Assembly: GCA_015179025.1 (NCBI GenBank)
Contig: WHUX01000062.1
Location: 122,001 to 186,000, forward strand
Origin: Terfezia claveryi
Lineage: Eukaryota > Ascomycota > Pezizomycetes > Pezizales > Pezizaceae
Direction of reading: 5' to 3'
DNA length: 64,000 nt
A model generated the notes under the pieces. It searched no databases. It was not told where the DNA came from and saw only the letters and a list, made by a program, of their open reading frames with translations. Numbering within the stretch: position 1 is the stretch's first letter; each line of letters opens with the position of its first letter. The position numbers were made by a program, and so were the translations under genes. Positions 4,693 through 57,713 of the stretch are shown piece after piece.

Positions 4693-5676
4693 CACTCTGA
4701 GGTGAAGTCATAGGTACTACCTGAGAGAAAGGGGTCATGCCAACAAACTTGGAAAAATATCTTTTGTTGGATGTTGACGGTCAGGTAGCAGATGCGGTTG
4801 CCGTCACAAGAATGTGGCGTTAATGAATAGAGGTCTGAATAGACGCCACGTCGTGTAACAAACTTACCCTCAAACCTTTATCAAACTTCACCTCAGACAC
4901 CATTTTCACTGTTTGAAATCAAACTTCACTCCTATCCACTCCTCCGAGTGGGACGTTTAATCATAGTGAACTTCTAAGAACTTCTATTAACTGCACACCC
5001 GATTTCCCAGGGATCTAACACTGTTTCAACTGATTTTGGTGACCTCATGAGTGTGAGATGCACTTGAATGCTTGCACACCTAGATAGAATTTGGAGTAGG
5101 AGTAGCAAGAGATTCAAAGGATGCGTCTAAAAGCCTGTCCAACAAAAAATTTAAAATCATGGAAAATATTCCCCGGCGTCTTCGTTTTGAACTTCCTAAC
5201 CATCTTCACTCGCGCTGGAAGCCTATTCTTTTCCGGCCTACGGTATATGCACATATCCCCAATCAGCTGATGACATTTTACGCTGCAGAGATTTGGAGGA
5301 GTGTCCAATCGCACTGCTGTGTGCCGAGTTCTTTCAAGAACACTCCGGAAAAGGGGTGCTGGACAATTGGGATAATATACTTCAAATATGTGATCGGATG
5401 ACACTGTTATGGGATTGGTCTAGTTCCAGGCAGTCCAATAAAAGAACAAACTATACATACCAATCTTCCTTACAGTCTTAGACTGACAGTGCCCCTTCTC
5501 CTATTGATATATGTGACGTTGCTGCCCGCTGGACTCGGGTTCCCTACCTACTATACCTCCTCATCTCTAAAAACACTTCTCCTTCCTCTTTACTTTCTGT
5601 TTCATTCAAGAATATAACTCTAAGAAGCAGAAACTTCTTTTTTGTCTTTACTAGGCTATCGACATACATCTTCAAT
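4693..5676. other. Intergenic, upstream of the pheromone receptor
   Basis: I found no gene. A degenerate copy of the dispersed GTGCCAACCAGACTA motif lies at 4730-4750. The last 150 bp before the receptor start are C/T-rich, as fungal promoters and leaders often are. Confidence 0.55.
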
Positions 5677-7287
5677 ATGTATTCCGAGTTAGCCCTATAC
5701 AAGACCCTTTCTGGGTTGGCCGTTGCAGCATCAATTCTGCCGCTGATATGGCATGTCAAAACAAAAAACATACCTGCCATCTGCCTGATCATGTGGATTG
5801 GCATGTTCAACACAATCAGCTTTTTGAATGCTTTTATTTGGAGTGGAGACATCTTCAAAGCATGGGACGGAAAAGTCTTCTGTGACATTGAGATTAAGTT
5901 TATTATTGCTGCCATGACAGGAGAGATGGGGTCCATCGCCGCCTGTGCAAGGAATCTTGCCAATATCATGAGAGATGATTTACCTGTTGTGAAGACCCGG
6001 GCGGAGAAAAGAAGGCAGTTAATCATAGATTTGTTGTTCTGCTTTGGGGTCCCGGTCTGGATGATGTCGATTCATTATGTGATCCAGCCGGGCAGATATT
6101 GGCTCATCGAGGTTATAGGATGTACACCAACTGTGGATAATTCATGGCCGAGTATTGTGCTAGTTTTTATTTGGCCTCCAATAAGTGCTCTCGCGGCTAC
6201 GTACTTTTGCAGTGAGTTTTTCCATTCCTCTCATTGAATGGTCACCAGTCCTAAGCTGAGATATATTCCCAGTCCTTGTTTTCATTCGTCTCCGCCGGTA
6301 TCAAAATGAGTTTGACAATATTCTCTCCAATTCCACGAATAAGACTACGAAATCCCGGTTCTTACGTTTATACATTTACTGTTCTGGTCTCATACTCTTC
6401 CTCCTTCCAACTACCTTCTATACCTTTTATCGTGAACTGAATGTCGAGCGCTTGCCTTATGACTGGAAACTCATCCATGACCCAGTAATGTGGGCTGATA
6501 TCTACAGGATTCCGACGAATGGGAAAGTGGCATTCGATAAGTGGATGATTATTGGGGCAGGTCTTCTGTTATTCTTGTTCTTTGGGTTTGGGCAAGATGC
6601 AAATACCATGTATAAGGACTGGATAGTGAAGGCCGGCCTGGGCAAATACTGGGAGAGGATGCGAAAGAACAAAAAAGAAGAAGCAAGAAAGCGACATTTC
6701 GTGAATGACTGGAGCGGCAATACGAAGAAGGAGAAAATCATAACCTCTGGAATCATGGGTTTGGCGGAGTTGAATTCCCTTGGTGATGATGATGATGAGT
6801 AAGTTTTTTTCAAAACACATATTAACAATTGAACTCAGCCTTTACTGATTCGGTTTCTAGCCCTGAAATTTCAACAATCTACATTGCGGAATGCTCAGGC
6901 AACTGGAAACAGAGTGGTCAAAAATCCCCTCCCTCAAACTCCGCCACTCCACAAACTCGATTGAAGAGCCCCGGCAGCCCCCCTCCTCCGTTGGTGAACT
7001 TAGATGAAATCACCCATATGCACACGTCAAACTCTTTAGCCAATGATTTTGAGTTTCAGTCAACACCGGCCGGAAATGGGGCCGCGCAGGGTGACAAAAT
7101 GCCACGTTCATGCACGATGCATGAAGATGGTGTGGAACATCACGCGAATGAGAAGCCAGGTGGTGCATCCTCCTGTCAACGGCAAGTGGGAAATCTCCGG
7201 AAAGGGAAGGCTAAAGCCGATGGCGCCTCAACCTCAGAGTCTTCGTCGATCATGGTTGAGACGGAAGTAAGAGTAGTATGTACTTGA
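5677..7287 (+). CDS. ste3: STE3-class (a-factor type) pheromone G-protein-coupled receptor
   Basis: A plasma-membrane receptor for the lipid-modified mating pheromone, expected to signal through the heterotrimeric G protein and MAP kinase pathway. The exons are 5677-6211, 6273-6798 and 6861-7287 (495 aa). Both introns are about 61 bp with GTGAGT or GTAAGT donors. The first two exons carry about seven hydrophobic segments, STE3-type loops (an LRRYQNEF-like third loop after segment five) and a charged post-TM7 region. The last exon gives a soluble Ser/Pro-rich tail of about 140 residues after an Asp run. If the second intron were retained, translation would stop after DDDDE with a shorter tail; both forms are possible. 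No mating-type gene is in the window. Confidence 0.9.
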
Positions 7288-43334: not shown

Positions 43335-46300
43335 ATGGGGGAGCTCATAGAAGAACGAGGTGGCGAGGATGTCAAGATGGAAAACTCTGTCGTCAAGCTT
43401 TCACCACAAATGTTCACTCCTGACACTGAAGAAGCCCTAACCAAATCTACGACACAGCCACGGAGCACACGGGAGTCAACCATGACCGACGAAACGGACG
43501 GAATCAAGAAAGAGGTAAAATCTGAAAGCCCAGATTCAGATACAAAATTTGGGCGAGGTATGTCGACTATGAAGATGTCGCGTAGAACACCCCCTCTTTT
43601 CAGTCACCTGCCCTCTGCTACTGAGGAAGCCACGAAGACTTTCACAGTCATTCAGGACTCTATATACACCGCAAAATACCTAGGGGACTCTGGACAAGAT
43701 GAAGCAATGTCATGTGACTGTAGATCCTCATGGAGTGAGTTCAAAATCCTACAAGCTGATGAAAAGTTTCCTACTAACCGCACGTAGACGGCTCAATCAA
43801 TGAAGCTTGTGGTGAAGACTCCGATTGCATCAATCGACTGACCTCCATGGAGTGTTTCGGCACTGCCTGTGGGTGCGGGGCTGATTGTCAGAATCAACGG
43901 TTTCAAAACCACCAATACGCGGATGTCGACGTTATCCTTACCGAGATGAAAGGATACGGTATCAGAATAAATCGAGACACACCAGCCAATACCTTCATCT
44001 ACGAGTATGTTGGGGAAGTCATAGATGAGGCCAAATTTAGACGGAGGACGGAGCAATATGCCAAAGAAGGCATCAAGCACTTTTACTTCATGTCTCTCGG
44101 AAAATCAGAATTTATTGACGCCACTCGAAAAGGTGGTCTCGGGCGCTTTTGCAATCACTCATGCAACCCAAATTGCTATGTCGACAAATGGGTTGTTGGA
44201 GACAAACTGCGAATGGGTATTTTTGCCAAGAGAAGTCTTAAGGCAGGGGAGGAGTTAGTTTTCGACTATAACGTCGACAGATATGGTGCTGATCCACAGG
44301 CTTGCTATTGTGGAGAGCCGAACTGTATTGGATACATTGGTGGTAAGACGCAGACCGAATCTGGAACTAAGCTATCGCACCAGACCCTTGAGGCACTTGG
44401 TCTCGACGACGATTATTCTTGGAGCACTGTGACAGCAAAGAAGAAGAAGCCAAAGAAGGGTGAAATTGACGATGATTACGTGCAGTCTATCCAGCCAAAG
44501 GCATTAGAAGCCTCTGCAGTCAATGGCATTATGTCAAGTCTGGTATCATGCAAAGAAAAGTGGATCGTTATCAAACTACTCAACAGGATTCACGCCAGCG
44601 AGGACCCTCTTGTGCAGGGACGTGTTCTGCGGCTGCACGGTTACAGTATCATGAACAACCTTCTAGTGAAATGGAGAGATGAAAAGCATATTATCATTAC
44701 GATTCTGGAAATTCTTGCTAAATGGCCCAGGTTAACAAAAAATAAAATATCTAGCTCAAAAATTGAGGGGACAGTGGAAGAGATATGCCAGAAAAACGAA
44801 GATGCCAAGGTGCAGGAGCTCTCTAGGGAACTTTTGGAGTCATGGGCGTGCCTACAGTCAGCATACCGTATTCCTCGAAGAGCTCCTGGTGTTGAGAATG
44901 CAGCTGAATTCTCATTCGATGAAGGGAGGCGACAACGTGAGAAGTCACCCACCCCGTCGGATCGGCCATCAACACCAAAGCAACCACGTAACAGTGCACC
45001 AGCGAAGCCATTTAATCCACCAAAGGGCCCTGCGAACGCCACTCCTGCGGGGCAGATACGACAACCAATAAATCAGCCCCCTCCCCCCCACCACCTTCAA
45101 TACCCACTGGACACATTATGCCAGCATCGACGAATGGGGCACCTTTACCTAGGGGCTGGTGGTGGCATAAAGATCCACGGGGGGTCAAATTCTTCTATAC
45201 CTCAGACTATTCAAAGATACAATGGAACCATCCTTTAGATCCATCACTCTTTCCACAAACTACTGGGATTATCAAGCGGCGTGGATTGGAAGACATCATA
45301 CAAGCCTGTCAACAAGAGTACGCAGAGACTGCTGAGGCTAAAATGAGGGCAGAAATCGAGAAGAAGGCCTTAGAAGAAGAAGAGAGACACAAAAGGGAAG
45401 AAGAGCGGCGGAAATATGAGGAGGAGAGGCGAGAACGGAAAAGAAAGGAGCATGAGGCGAAAAAGTTGAAAAAGAAAAAGGAGGATAAGTTTAAGAGCAT
45501 TGAGCCGGAGTTGGCCCGGAAGTTGATTGCAAAGACTGTGAGTTGATGACGGCCTCATGGCTTGATGCTGGCCTCGTTAACAAGCATTTAGCACGGAGTG
45601 ATTGCCTTCGAGGTGGCAAATGTTTACCGCCACAAATATAAGTGGAATTGGCCAAAAGATGACTTCAAACTTCTTATGAAAGGGGTATGGGAGAGCTACA
45701 CATAAAACATGCCTTTGGCTAATACTTTTTTTAGTTTTCTTACAAGCTCGCTGATCGTACACTCGAGAAAGGCGGCAAATACGCTGAACAACCCGGTATC
45801 GCAATCGACAAAGAGTATAGAGGCCGCATAGAAGGACATGTAAAGCAATGGATGAGGGATGAACGGTATTGTAAGAAGAAGCTTGAGCAATTTAGGAAAG
45901 AGTATGCACAGCCTGGTACCGACGGGGAATCTCCAGCCGGGGCTAAGCTCGGGCGTTCAAGTTTTCAACCATCAGGATCTCAACCAGGATCGAGTGGGGG
46001 CACAGAGGATAGTCCTATGGTAAATGGCGTGAATGATGTAAAGGTGAGGGCGGACGAAGGGAGTGCACAATCTACCCCCGCTTCAAGTTTGTCGCCAAGA
46101 AAACGGAATAGGGAAGATGAAGATGGCGGGGCCGGTGGTGATAACCAGGAGATGGATCAGAGTCCCAGGAAGAGATCGAAATCCAGTAGCCCTGCGTATG
46201 TAGAGTCGCCACCTGGGTCCACGGCTTCACAGCGAATGGAGACGTCGGTTCAACCGGATTCGCTACCACAATCACCTGGAGTGGCAGAGGTATTACAGTT

Positions 46301-50455: not shown

Positions 50456-50475
50456 AGGGGTCGTGCCAACCAGAC
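50456..50475 (+). repeat. Left arm of a 20-bp inverted repeat flanking the viperin gene
   Basis: It reads AGGGGTCGTGCCAACCAGAC and is the exact reverse complement of 53520-53539. It belongs to the dispersed GTGCCAACCAGACTA family. No matching target duplication is visible outside the pair. Confidence 0.85.
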
Positions 50476-50681: not shown

Positions 50682-51665
50682 TCACCAATCCAAATCCTTC
50701 CTCTCCGGGCCGTTACAAGACTCTCCCCCTTTGCCTCTAGCAACATCTTTTGACCAATCATATACCCCTCCACGCTCCTTAAACCCACTTTCATCCCACT
50801 TAACATCGAGTAACGCTTGCTGAACCCCAATCTCAATGATTGGCTTGGTTGGAGAACCCCGATCCACAAACCGGAGGTATTCATCCAAAATTAGATAGGA
50901 TGAAGCCATTAGTCGATTTGGTTCGGGTACGAAACATTTATTGTGGGAATGGGCATCACAGAAGCGTTGAAATTCCTCATCCGTGAGCATAAAATCAGAT
51001 GCATCCCTCAGTGCCTCTGGTGTCGCATACTGATTATTCTCCCCCTTGACGATTAGCACCTGGAAACACTTCCATCGAAATGGAGCAAGGTCTTGAATTT
51101 CCCTGTTCATGTCCTCCTCAAAGTTGAATTTATTAACCACCGTGTTGAGCTTGAACCGAACGTTGTACTTTTTGCAGAGAGCTGCAACATTTTGCACGCT
51201 AGCTAGGTGATTTCCCGTCCCTCGCCCAATCCGCTTATTGGTTTCCTCATCAAATGAATCACAGGAGACGGCAATGATATCGATAAACGTGTGATATTTG
51301 AAGAGGAAGCGTTCATTGACCTTGCTTCCATTAGTTACAATGGAAACAGACTCAAGCTTCAACTCTTCTTTGCAGAACTTGACTAATTCACCGAGGAATT
51401 GAGGATAAAGGAATGGCTCGCCACCAGCAAAGTTGAGCTTGCGCATTCCTTCATTCTTGAGGAGGGCCAAAGCATGTTTTGCATCCTGGAGGCTGGGTAC
51501 GTGTGAAGTTTTGGCGGTGTGGAAGCAAAATCCACACTCGTAATTACACTTCCGGGAGAAATGAAAGTTGACCGAGATAGGAATAATCCGACGATGGTGT
51601 GAGGCGAGGTGGTAAAAAAGGAGAGCCAATAGCGCAAGAATTATAAGAAGAACTATCGGATGCAT
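50682..51665 (-). CDS. Viperin-like radical SAM enzyme (fungal RSAD2 homologue)
   Basis: Viperins use SAM and a [4Fe-4S] cluster to dehydrate CTP to ddhCTP, a chain-terminating nucleotide; some fungal members also accept UTP. This is a single-exon gene of 327 aa (human form 361). Residues 3-21 form a strong hydrophobic helix, a likely ER or lipid-droplet anchor. The radical SAM cluster motif is C40-x3-C44-x2-C47 in FSRKCNYECGFCFHTAKTS, and the SAM-binding GGEPF lies at 81-85. Other viperin landmarks are SIVTNGS, AVSCDSFDEETNKRIGRG, KLNTVVNKFNFEEDM, FRWKCFQVLIVKGEN and SYLILDEYLRF. The protein ends in KDLDW, keeping the C-terminal tryptophan needed for cluster loading by the cytosolic Fe-S machinery. 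A basic insert sits just before the end. The neighbouring nucleotide kinase supports a role in nucleotide chemistry. Confidence 0.95.
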   Translation of the reverse strand: MHPIVLLIILALLALLFYHLASHHRRIIPISVNFHFSRKCNYECGFCFHTAKTSHVPSLQDAKHALALLKNEGMRKLNFAGGEPFLYPQFLGELVKFCKEELKLESVSIVTNGSKVNERFLFKYHTFIDIIAVSCDSFDEETNKRIGRGTGNHLASVQNVAALCKKYNVRFKLNTVVNKFNFEEDMNREIQDLAPFRWKCFQVLIVKGENNQYATPEALRDASDFMLTDEEFQRFCDAHSHNKCFVPEPNRLMASSYLILDEYLRFVDRGSPTKPIIEIGVQQALLDVKWDESGFKERGGVYDWSKDVARGKGGESCNGPERKDLDW

Positions 51666-53952
51666 CGTGGAAGGTAACTTATAGGAGTTACAAGCTGACT
51701 TTGGTTCAACTTTGCCTAGAAAAAATCAAAGATTATCACTGGTGAGAGGGGCGAGTATAGGTAAGAAGTGTTACTTATGGAGTAGTTGCTTAGAATGTGT
51801 GGCCTCGCCGAGGTGATTGTCAATTGGAGCGTAGGCAGCAATGTCTATAGAAATATCTATCCTTACGGTAACTCGATCAAACGCTCAAAGGTTATAGCCC
51901 AGGCTAGGCCTCCAAACGAAAAACAAGATGCATGGTGCTTTTATTACAACTCTGGATGTGTCAGTGAGTGGGGAATCGTTTGCGGCACCGGATCTAGGAC
52001 CCCATTACGAATTTAAAAAGTTCTCTCATGATGGTCACCTACACCACCAGGCCAATTAACAAGGACCTTTATCGTGGCTAAATGTGATATCGCTCGGTCT
52101 GTTATCAATAGTTTTATCAAGCAGCAGTTTCCCGGTTCAGGCCTTCCCTACTGGTCTATTAACGAGCACACCTGCAAGGCTGATATCATGATATCGATGC
52201 CGGAATATACCAATAACAATCCATATTGCAAAGATCCGCGTGCTTCTTGTTAAGACCCCTCGCGAATAAGACTCTAGGGTGATTGGGACTGCTCTCGATG
52301 TGAAATACCTGGGAATAAGACCAATCTGTATGTACACAAGGAGGATTGAGGAAGAGGACAAGCAGGAGAAGCCTCGTAGAAATCCGCGAGGACTCAGGTA
52401 TAATACCCTAATTAGATGGCTGGTGACTGGTCCCTTGAATAAGGCCTACGCTATGTTGAAGGCCCGACGAAAAAAAACCTAAGCATAGATGGGGAAGCCT
52501 GTGATTAACGCTCAGGTCTTACAAGTTTTTACGATATTGATATTCATTTCCTAATTCAAATTCTGTAACCTGGGGAATGGGAGGGTAGCTATGACACGTC
52601 CTTATCTTCATGGAAGGCCTGGCGGGTTGCAGCTTCATAAGTATGTCTATATGCATAGAATTACCGTATGGGAAATTACTTTGTTCGGAACCCTACAAAC
52701 ATTACTGGTTTGTTCAGTCCCCGCTAGTTAGGCGCAGACGCACAAAAACACGATGTGGAAGAGCAACCGCTCATAGGCGGGGAATGTTTGTTAGGCACGC
52801 CTCGCCTTCCTGGTTGTACGTATACATATACGAATATAGGCAGGCCCGCAACTGGAACTAGAATTGGAAGAAAATGTACAAAGCCGATGATACTGAGACA
52901 TCCTAAGCCCAGGCATAATTCTTAAGAGTACTCAATTTACAAGCATACCCTCTGAGCGGAATACCAGTATACAGTACGAACAACCAGGGCCCTGGTGCCA
53001 TTTCTAACACAAAGGCTTCCCGCAGTTAGTGGCAGTCAATGGAAGAGGTAGTGAGACAACTGATCTATGACTGAGGACCCTAATGTGAGTAAATAGCTAC
53101 AATGGAGGGATAGAACTAGACCAGGGAGCCAGGAAACCAGAAGGCCTTAAGCGGCACGCATAGACATCACAAACACCAGTATTCAGGAACCCCATTGCCT
53201 ACATGTATGGCAAACCGAAATACCTAAATTAGCATAGACAAGTGTTGAGAAGCCTTACGTATTCAGGAAGTATCTGGGACGCATTAAAGAGGCCGCGGTT
53301 AGGCCTGCCTGCAGGTAGGCTGAGCGCGGCTCTTCTGCAAATGGGAATGATAGCCGACAGGACAAAGACAGTCAGTTAGCCATGATAATTTATGAATAGC
53401 ACTGTACGTAGGTACCTACTATAGTGACGGACAGAGGAACCCAAATTGCAGATGGTTGCGGTACAACTAAAAACATGTAATCTAGAATGCGGTACACCTG
53501 GTACCTATATGAAGTCCTAGTCTGGTTGGCACGACCCCTCCTGTGGGAGCATGAAGTCCCGGATTGAAGAGGAAATGACGAGGATTTACAGTACGTTGGA
53601 CCTGTGTCATATTCAGATAGGGCAGTCCCGGGGTTGGACAATCTATCGGTAATCCGCTGCCTCGTCATAGATTGGATGGCTTGATCAATTGAATAGGGGT
53701 AATGGGAGAGCCCAAATTTTTTAATGTGGCACGAGATCATCAATCTGTGAGGTGTACGACCAATAAGCAAATTCTAATCAATAAGTATCACAATAGGTGG
53801 GGGGAGTAATGCTACTAGCAAATATATTTCTGATACCCCTCTTTGCTTGTAACCGATCCAGTTGGTTTTGCCCTTGTATCTCTCAATTGTTGAACTTCTC
53901 CATTTGATAGGCAATAACAAAGCTCAGAATCTAAATCTGATCATCTGAAAGC
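51666..53952. other. Divergent region between viperin and kinase genes
   Basis: This 2.3-kb spacer would carry both promoters. No gene is clear. Two decayed open frames (about 52031-52253, without an ATG, and 52279-52482, Lys/Arg-rich) resemble nothing I know. The right arm of the 20-bp inverted repeat lies at 53520-53539. Confidence 0.55.
53520..53539 (-). repeat. Right arm of the 20-bp inverted repeat flanking the viperin gene
   Basis: It is the exact reverse complement of 50456-50475. Together the arms bound 3084 bp that contains the whole viperin gene but not the kinase. Confidence 0.85.
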
Positions 53953-54834
53953 ATGGACTGGAAGCAAATAAACATATTCTTCATCTTGGGTGCGTATTAA
54001 GCTTATTTCAAGTTATATAAACGTAAACTACCAACTTACTATCTGTGTTTTCTCCTCAGGCGGACCTGGATCAGGAAAGGGCAGCATCTGCAGCCGTATT
54101 CTTACCGACCCCGGCTTCCAAGGGGTAGCACATGTATCCATTGGGGATGTTCTTAGAGTGGAAATTAATCAAAAGGGGGTGGATGGCCCCTTGATTGAGC
54201 AGACAATGAAAGATGGACAGTTACTCCCTTGGACGATGATTTTACACTACCTCCAGAAAGGCATTGATAATATGGTGAAGGAGACTGGGAAAACGTGCAT
54301 CTTGTTAGATGGATTCCCGAGGACAGTCCCTCAGGCAAAGCTATTTGAAGAACTAAAGGTGAGATAATTATGTTCATCAGTTATTTGTCGGGGCTAACTG
54401 GATATATAGGAATATAAATGCCGCGATGCAATATTGCTCCATTGCTCCAAGGAAGAAATGTTGAGGCGCACCGCCAACCGTCAAGACACATATCAGAGAG
54501 TTGATGATAATCGCGCTACGGTGCTTAAGAGAATTGAGGGTTACTTCGCGGAGACAGTACCAGTGGCTGAATATTTCCGAACTCAAAAGAGATTGATTGA
54601 GGTATACTTGACTTCTAATGCCTGAAACTGATACTTGCGTTATCGGGATTAATGCATGGAGTCCTTAGGTGAGTAGCGAGGGTACTGCCGAGGAGACATA
54701 TGCACAATTGCAACCTCTGCTTCAGGTGAGAATCTAGCCTGCAATTGGTTATGTTTTGGATGGGCTCGAGGTGTCATTTTTACAATGCTAATATTTTGTA
54801 TGAATTTTAGGAAAAATTCCTACAAGCCATCTAA
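53953..54834 (+). CDS. UMP/CMP (adenylate-type) nucleoside monophosphate kinase
   Basis: It should transfer phosphate from ATP to a nucleoside monophosphate, probably UMP or CMP. Exons 53953-53989, 54060-54358, 54410-54601, 54669-54725 and 54811-54834 give 202 aa, the length of yeast Ura6 or human CMPK1. The P-loop is GGPGSGKG (residues 13-20). The NMP-binding part reads HVSIGDVLRVEI and GQLLPWTMILHYL. The Walker B-like strand reads CILLDGFPRTVPQA. The LID has RRTANRQDTYQRVDDN, where UMP/CMP kinases usually have a Gly two residues before VDDN-type Asp pairs; here it is Gln. Small introns with GTGCGT, GTGAGA and GTATAC donors are all in frame; the last two exons are tiny and less certain. It is divergent from the viperin gene, and I infer a specialised kinase rather than the housekeeping copy. 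Confidence 0.85.
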
Positions 54835-55485: not shown

Positions 55486-56100
55486 ATGGCACTCAAACAA
55501 GCCCTTCGCGAAATCGAGCAAAAATTTACATTCAATCGCCATCTCCTGCCCCTGCTACGTACAAACTCCGGCAAACCGCCCTTCACCCATCTCACACCCT
55601 TCAAACAAACCTGCTTCCACGACGCATACTACGACAACAACGCACGTGTCCTAAGCATGAATACCTCTGGGGCTATTTGGCTACGAAAGCGAGATGGCGA
55701 ATGGCAAGCCAAGGTGACCAAAAGAGTGAATGAAAATTTCCAGAAAGCCAGTTACCAGGAAGTCTCGATTGTTTCTGAAATTGAGAAGCTTATTGGAAAC
55801 TATCTTCCTGGGTGCCCGGGGGTAAAGAGTAACTTTGGCTTGCAGCCATATTGTCAGTTTGCGACGGATAGAACGGAGTTTACGGCTAATGAGAGGTTTA
55901 CGGTTGCGTTGGATACGACGGATTTCGGGCACGATGTGGGAGAGGTGGAGGTCATTGCGAAGGAGGGGGAGGATGATAAGCAGGTTATGACGGAGATTGA
56001 GAAGTTTGTGGAGGAGTATCAATGGTTTTTTAAGAGCGGGGAGGGGAAGCCGAAGGGGAAGATGTCAGCGTATTTCGAGAAGTTTGGGGGTTGGCCGTAA
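55486..56100 (+). CDS. CYTH-domain triphosphatase, thiamine-triphosphatase-like
   Basis: CYTH (triphosphate tunnel) enzymes bind and usually hydrolyse organic triphosphates or polyphosphate in an eight-strand barrel; animal members hydrolyse thiamine triphosphate. This is a single-exon gene of 204 aa from the first in-frame ATG. The signature E-x-E-x-K is at residues 9-13 (EIEQKF). It is followed by DAYYDNNARVLS, then the basic IWLRKRDGEWQAK, then FATDRTEF, and DTTDFGHDVGEVEV near the end. These match thiamine triphosphatase in order and spacing, and all key charged residues I can place are present. It lies 0.65 kb downstream of the kinase on the same strand. The true substrate is unknown; a nucleotide triphosphate is conceivable given the neighbours. 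Confidence 0.85.
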   Translation: MALKQALREIEQKFTFNRHLLPLLRTNSGKPPFTHLTPFKQTCFHDAYYDNNARVLSMNTSGAIWLRKRDGEWQAKVTKRVNENFQKASYQEVSIVSEIEKLIGNYLPGCPGVKSNFGLQPYCQFATDRTEFTANERFTVALDTTDFGHDVGEVEVIAKEGEDDKQVMTEIEKFVEEYQWFFKSGEGKPKGKMSAYFEKFGGWP

Positions 56101-56479: not shown

Positions 56480-57713
56480 TGCCACTATTCCTAGTCGGGT
56501 TGTTCTACACCCAATCATCATTCAAGAGATTATCGACCCAAGCTCTGAGAGATCCAAACACCAGGCCTATTGGCTCGCTGAGATAGGGTCCATCTGGAAG
56601 AAGGGTGGAGGGGTTTGCTTCACCGATGGTAATGGTCGAAAGGGGAAAATTGCTAGCTAGCACATGGCGGCAGGACCGACTCATACGGTGGGTATTTGTG
56701 GGGTTCAGCCACGGTGGCGGACGGAGAGCTTCATGCAATCCAGCTGGCTCTGAGCGCGGAAGACTCGGATATGCTAGCCTTTCTCTCGGATTCCCAGGCT
56801 GTGATACAGGCCATCCGCAATATTGGCCGAGGCACAACCCCCAAGGTCGAGTATAGAGATTGAAATCAAAGCATCCCTAACCCCTTTCGTGTCAACCAGC
56901 CAAAGGAGGGTGTTGTGCCAACCAGACTAATCTTCGCCTAGGTTAGAGGCCATATAGGATTGATGGTAACGAAGGGGCCTGCGAGCTGCCTCCAAAGCCA
57001 TCAGAAAGGAAGCCAGGACCAAGGCGGGGTTCGGAGTAAGAAGGTGTGAATGGGGACGACAGACACTTCAGCTTACACCTGGGTGCGGACAGCTCAAGGT
57101 CCCCAGAAGAGCTGGCTACATACACCAACATCGGCAAAGAAGAATCCAAGGCATTCGAATGTGGATACCCGGTGGAGAGTGGACAGCACATCATCTTCGA
57201 TTGCCCACGGTTCAGACGCATCAGAGCCAGTCTCCTAGGTAGGGGCAAATGCAGCTGGGGAGGTCTGGACAAGCCGGAGTGGAGGAAGGAGGTGAATGAA
57301 TCCTTTGAGGCCACGGATGCCTTCTTTAATCTTATATTTCACGAGCTCACCTAATATTTGCGATCAACTATCTTGATCACGAGCTCACCTAGTCCTTCTT
57401 CCAGCTATGGGTTCTTGAGTTCTTTCACGGGTCCATTGGGGTATCTCCAGTTAGTCTATGAGTTCACGAGTTCTTTTGAGTCCGTCGGGATTTTCCTTGT
57501 TGCTTGTTCCCGGGTGAGGTTCAGTCAGGTCCCTCGGGGTCATCGGACATAGGTCCGTTAATGACAGCATTGTGCCTCGTTCCCCTTTGAAGTTCATGTA
57601 CCTTGGCAGATTAACTTGCCTTGTCCCTGAATCCACCCGGGTTTCCCGGCGCTCCTCATGGTCCCATTAACGGGACCGCATAGGAGTAATGAAATTTGGA
57701 AAAAAAAAAAAAG
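56480..57713 (+). mobile_element. Decayed non-LTR retrotransposon (Tad1/I-like, with RNase H)
   Basis: An RNase H-like stretch reads DGELHAIQLALSAED and SDSQAVIQAIRNIG (56719-56820). The motif GHIG followed, after a frameshift, by GIDGNEGA lies near 56951-56985. A tryptophan expected just before it is a TAG stop, a change a C-to-T mutation would give. The C-terminal Cys/His box FECGYPVESGQHIIFDCP is at 57158-57211. A 3' untranslated region follows, ending in GGGACCGCATAGGAGTAA and an A-run (57650-57713). The 5' limit is not clear, and nothing can be functional. Confidence 0.8.

Follow-up and report, generated by a model that had tools for sequence, protein, structure and literature searches.

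In the 64,000-nucleotide stretch of contig WHUX01000062.1 of the desert truffle Terfezia claveryi analysed here (the window), a viperin gene and a divergent nucleoside-monophosphate (NMP) kinase gene stand head to head. Our preferred reading is that viperin was paired independently, and within one clade only, with an NMP kinase of another family, which would feed the nucleotide supply of viperin. Both genes, the gap between them and the kinase introns are arranged as follows.

50682..51665, minus strand: viperin (RSAD2/SAND) gene, single exon, 327 amino acids, with a hydrophobic N-terminal segment, CNYECGFC and a C-terminal LDW
51666..53952, no strand: gap of 2,287 bp between the start codons, without a recognised gene
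53953..54834, plus strand: five-exon gene of a divergent NMP kinase with a short lid, adenylate-kinase family (PF00406), product of 202 amino acids, catalytic residues kept
53990..54059, plus strand: kinase intron 1, interrupting the P-loop segment between ILG and GPGSGKGS; deposited protein identical
54359..54409, plus strand: kinase intron 2, at the point where four metagenomic exon-2 fragments also continue into intron-like sequence
54602..54668, plus strand: kinase intron 3; deposited protein identical
54726..54810, plus strand: kinase intron 4; deposited protein identical

The viperin-like enzyme that the original prediction placed on the minus strand was upheld. Its protein scores 243.1 bits with the viperin equivalog model NF038283 (cut-off 180), matches solved viperin structures (chain 6b4c with E 1.1e-120) as well as the PADLOC prokaryotic viperin (pVip) models, has a hydrophobic run at about residues 4-18, carries the CxxxCxxC motif as CNYECGFC and ends in LDW. 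The three cluster cysteines are invariant across 16 aligned viperins, and the final Trp is variable. The cut-off of 450 for TIGR04278, a model of the kind 'exception', was missed with 372.5 bits over residues 24-307; this model is presumably aimed at animal viperins, and therefore we do not take it to define the whole family. Judged by its sequence, 50682..51665 encodes a full-length viperin, whose identity is borne out. A genome search with this protein returned itself as the sole match, and a scan of the genome contigs with a fungal viperin alignment gave 63 pattern matches, none of them a relative. Viperins are common in fungi among the matches listed, where those of named ascomycetes are mostly 54-63% identical to the window viperin.

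The kinase reads from the ATG at 53953 to the TAA at 54834, and its spliced product of 202 amino acids is 100% identical to the deposited 'adenylate kinase-domain-containing protein [Terfezia claveryi]' (P0001). It matches PF00406 with 103.7 bits, above the Pfam cut-off, has the NMP-kinase fold and has no match to PF02223 at E 0.001. The curated cut-offs of TIGR01359 (UMP-CMP kinase, i.e., acting on uridine and cytidine monophosphate; 136.7 bits, cut-off 207.6) and TIGR01360 (adenylate kinase isoform 1; 131.2 bits, cut-off 284.1) were both missed, and the earlier label of a 'UMP/CMP-type' enzyme is thus not established; UMP/CMP specificity is not callable from the sequence, and a preference for these substrates is our supposition. 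The predicted head-to-head orientation and 2.3-kb spacing proved exact, with 2,287 bp separating the start codons. A DNA search of the genome with this gap, of a type that skips very common words, found only the gap itself and one 36-bp stretch of a dispersed repeat. A sigma-70 scan gave seven sites in the gap vs 5.0 expected, a bacterial-type scan that is not meaningful in a fungus.

The window kinase is an additional NMP kinase copy beside a separate Ura6 and two adenylate kinases. A PF00406 search of the genome of about 72.5-72.6 Mb gave six matches at four places including the window kinase, the other places being Ura6 on contig C59 and longer-lid adenylate kinases on C123 and C13. In a tree of 31 hand-picked rows, the truffle kinases came out as one group (support 100/100), with a stem of 4.5 changes per site, and lay outside the Ura6 group. 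The latter held 14 rows, eight of them metagenomic and assumed to be fungal, at a support of 89/90 that is not firm. The truffle's own Ura6 on C59 joined the Tuber Ura6 (96/94), and the approximately unbiased (AU) test rejected a pairing of the truffle kinases with it (p 0.011). Their placement inside the wider Ura6 group was not firmly rejected (p 0.065), and that with AK1/AK5 was not rejected (p 0.31). A quick tree of 124 rows, with a stem of 3.6, set two truffle kinases beside four long-branched metagenomic rows (support 84), also outside Ura6. Because the stems are long (3.6 to 4.5 changes per site), any deeper placement of the truffle kinases is unsafe. The best solved-structure match of the kinase by sequence is yeast Ura6, as would suit an ordinary Ura6 orthologue of this fungus; we give that explanation almost no credence and rejected it, since the conventional Ura6 on C59 groups with that of Tuber and the pairing failed the AU test. 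In this narrow sense, the kinase tree does not yield a single-copy Ura6 orthologue. The Gln in DGFPRTVPQ was dropped as a candidate mark of adenylate kinases; yeast and truffle Ura6 also have Gln there, so it decides nothing.

Recurrence of the pair was followed in the best 120 of 7,893 matches listed for the full-length kinase. Only Tirmania nivea (86% identical) and two metagenomic fragments came close to the full kinase, all others being at most 38% identical, and a query with exon 2 gave four matches at E 1e-12 or better, namely those two fragments, P0241 (70%) and P0242 (88%). Taken together, the close kinase relatives listed comprise Tirmania nivea plus four metagenomic fragments, at 70-88% identity. 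The fragments stop exon 2 at the same boundary as the truffle kinase, and the gene structure is therefore common to both. Linkage was derived from kinase and viperin rows with identical contig sizes, with only the longest contig per cluster listed; this matching holds for T. claveryi itself, where the deposited kinase and the window contig both give 289,196 bp. In Tirmania nivea, kinase and viperin are both assigned to a contig of 1,433,899 bp, an identity of size that points to one scaffold and bears on the scaffold, not on nearness. The kinase fragment P0241 and the viperin P0125 (76% identical) both come from contigs of 5,502 bp of the source lgn, therefore both genes would lie within 5.5 kb, and the pair very probably recurs in a third lineage. 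For control, the contig sizes of 117 further kinase rows were compared with those of the 120 viperin rows, and none was shared; P0001 and P0002 were excluded deliberately, and one more row is not among the 117. With 237 contigs pooled, about 0.0015 chance matches are expected between the four fragments and the seven nearest viperin contigs, and 0.025 against all 120 viperin rows. The expected recurrence in related genomes thus holds, by inferred linkage, for Tirmania nivea and a third lineage, whereas a pairing across the ascomycetes is not supported: no kinase match above 38% identity outside the desert-truffle group was found among the matches listed. Recurrence of the pairing is thus very probable, though confined to a small clade.

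We tentatively favour, at slightly less than an even chance, the explanation that in desert truffles the two genes make up a single small module of nucleotide defence, in which viperin would be joined by an independently recruited, diverged NMP kinase refilling the pool of nucleoside triphosphates (NTPs). Viperin would turn a pyrimidine NTP, i.e., cytidine and/or uridine triphosphate (CTP, UTP), into its 3'-deoxy-3',4'-didehydro (ddh) form, and this product would terminate mycoviral RNA chains. The kinase beside it would convert NMPs to the diphosphates (NDPs; CDP/UDP) and restock the NTP pool drained by viperin, as proposed for CMPK2, whose vertebrate role it would fill from a different kinase family after independent recruitment. 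Both genes could be co-regulated via their common 2.3-kb gap. Both genes are seen to be intact, and the kinase to be an additional copy that keeps the known catalytic residues, while enzyme activities, base preference, co-regulation and antiviral purpose are all what we infer here. If the two genes are functionally linked, viperin has acquired a nucleotide kinase as its partner on at least one further occasion, this time out of another kinase family. Such a repeat would speak for a need of viperin, wherever it is active, for its own supply of nucleotides or handling of its product. The pair could also offer a tangible way into the antiviral nucleotide chemistry of fungi. A fungal viperin-kinase pair was not found in the titles or abstract starts listed, which leave most subscription journals outside their coverage, and no paper on a role of fungal viperins against mycoviruses was found among those listed.

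A further gene follows the kinase and may bear on its role.

55486..56100, plus strand: CYTH-domain (thiamine-triphosphatase-like) gene, single exon, 204 amino acids, PF01928 at 31.3 bits

It starts 651 bp past the kinase stop codon, carries an ExExK motif (EIEQK), has a thiamine triphosphatase as its best solved match and is without a second match in the genome. Proteins with a CYTH domain commonly act by hydrolysing thiamine triphosphate or polyphosphate. The gene may be part of the same nucleotide-handling group. Between 53518 and 56929, a dispersed repeat about 28 nucleotides long with TA edges (TAGTCTGGTTGGCACGACCCCT...) occurs in copies that face each other, in the manner of terminal repeats, around the kinase and CYTH genes; these are 90% alike over 21 nucleotides. 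A 20-mer of the repeat has 325 genome copies with up to two mismatches (control 0) and six in the window with up to three, and the flanks of the copies look unrelated. Identical 20-mers also lie on either side of viperin, at 50456 (minus) and 53520 (plus). Viperin as the cargo of a mobile element was considered and dropped, as these two 20-mers face outward, the 20-mer has 325 genome copies with up to two mismatches, and the copies read have, by eye, only about 28 nucleotides in common.

Several observations weigh against the module. Adjacency alone is weak, since no gene lacks neighbours and related species inherit the same ones, and the recurrence rests on identical contig sizes. Among the seven nearest viperin rows, five (P0121, P0123, P0124, P0126 and P0127) lack a kinase fragment of matching size; their contigs measure 15,277, 41,792, 18,480, 38,676 and 88,668 bp, and those of the three other kinase fragments 928, 6,438 and 11,223 bp. 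Bacterial-style gene calling easily misses an intron-bearing kinase, and only the longest contig per cluster is listed. Kalaharituber pfeilii, whose viperin is 60% identical, has no such kinase among the 120 matches listed. The best PADLOC model for the window viperin is that of kinase-unassociated viperins (224.5 vs 204.4 bits), and for the origin of the kinase the tree does not decide between an AK1-like enzyme, acting on adenosine monophosphate, and a Ura6-like one (AU p 0.31 and 0.065). The main rival is a bystander, i.e., a lineage-specific kinase that happens to lie beside viperin and that a young clade has simply inherited there, without a functional link, which we hold to be a real possibility though clearly short of probable. 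It would explain why close kinase matches are confined to near relatives among the matches listed, where Tirmania is the only named ascomycete of the viperin list also found among the close kinase matches, and it agrees with the viperin rows that lack a size-matched kinase and with the dispersed-repeat copies in the region. It sits less well with the choice of neighbour, since a nucleotide kinase is a notable one in a genome of this size with only six PF00406 matches at four places, and with the third lineage, which stands at 70-76% protein identity yet, by the 5,502-bp size match, is linked within 5.5 kb.

The residues around the substrate raise other roles. In the acceptor base pocket, all five truffle copies covering the site have Ile where Ura6 has Ala and AK1 has Thr, and in the lid both full-length truffle kinases have Gln where yeast Ura6 and AK1 have two Gly; the substrate of the kinase may therefore differ altogether, which also speaks against a plain refilling of the NTP pool. 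The kinase could act downstream of viperin, either re-phosphorylating or salvaging ddh-nucleoside monophosphates or, with the CYTH protein, balancing the ddhNTP level to protect the host. The changed pocket and lid and the CYTH gene with its ExExK motif next door would fit such a role, whereas the usual substrates of CYTH proteins do not, and we think it unlikely. A wider version of the favoured module, in which this would be the third independent kinase recruitment to viperin, with pocket and lid remodelled for ddh-nucleotides or their precursors and the CYTH triphosphatase as the third enzyme of a fungal antiviral module, is a shade less doubtful than a downstream role and still improbable.

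Elsewhere in the window, two further features were recognised.

5482..6237, plus strand: STE3-type pheromone receptor (PF02076, E 4.5e-57)
43778..45238, plus strand: frame with AWS, SET and Med26-like domains (Pfam)

An open frame at 6260-6802 may continue the receptor gene, and the frame at 43778-45238 is, as we take it, reminiscent of Set2 histone methyltransferases. The open frame at 57040-57354 on the plus strand resembles, on inspection by eye, the decayed end of a retroelement and has no Pfam match at E 0.001. Rfam gave no matches at the gathering threshold, and PHROGs gave weak matches only (best E 0.00073).

Among the closest known systems, other fungal viperins (SAND), such as those of Thielavia terrestris and Trichoderma, belong to the same family. 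The Thielavia enzyme converts CTP and UTP (PMC9642334). The passages and listings covered mention no kinase neighbour of these viperins, and neither genus has a close kinase homologue among the 120 matches listed. With Ura6/UMP-CMP kinase and AK1 the truffle kinase has in common the short-lid NMP-kinase fold with the catalytic residues kept, whereas it falls below both curated cut-offs and branches as a separate clade, with a stem 3.6 to 4.5 changes per site long. In vertebrates, too, viperin has an NMP kinase as its neighbour, oriented oppositely or divergently: as far as the accessible text of these sources goes, RSAD2 and CMPK2 adjoin each other in human and are transcribed divergently (PMC12889620, preprint), and chicken CMPK2 adjoins viperin in the opposite direction, with an N-terminal targeting part followed by a C-terminal thymidylate-kinase domain (PMC9132166). 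The original prediction of the same pairing as in vertebrates therefore stands in that viperin adjoins a nucleotide kinase and not in the kind of kinase: the truffle protein, of only 202 amino acids, is a PF00406 member without a PF02223 match at E 0.001, and we rejected the idea that it is a homologue of CMPK2 from the thymidylate-kinase family. The thymidylate kinase of this genome lies on C446, away from viperin.

The statement that some prokaryotic viperins sit beside nucleotide kinases was confirmed in the 12 plasmid records whose viperin matched at E 1e-20, each surveyed 3 kb to either side of it. An annotated kinase is the upstream neighbour of viperin in six records, four cyanobacterial and two of Pseudoalteromonas, the cyanobacteria being Nostoc, Anabaena and Sphaerospermopsis. 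The other six have no annotated kinase near viperin in a gene table known to be incomplete, and three hypothetical neighbours scanned in these records were not kinases. In three Moraxella and Acinetobacter plasmids without an annotated kinase (L025, L048, L049), an LRAT-type gene lies directly upstream of viperin, as seen from Pfam in L025 (E 2.2e-21), from the annotation in L048 and from the same layout in L049, which is from the same strain as L025. All six plasmid kinases match PF02223 and PF01712, of the thymidylate/deoxynucleoside-kinase families, and none matches PF00406; they lie upstream on the same strand in an operon-like order, whereas the truffle genes diverge. As the plasmid kinases and CMPK2 belong to other families, the truffle pair is alike in plan, not in kinase family, and on the sequences compared it is not inherited from the vertebrate or the bacterial pair.

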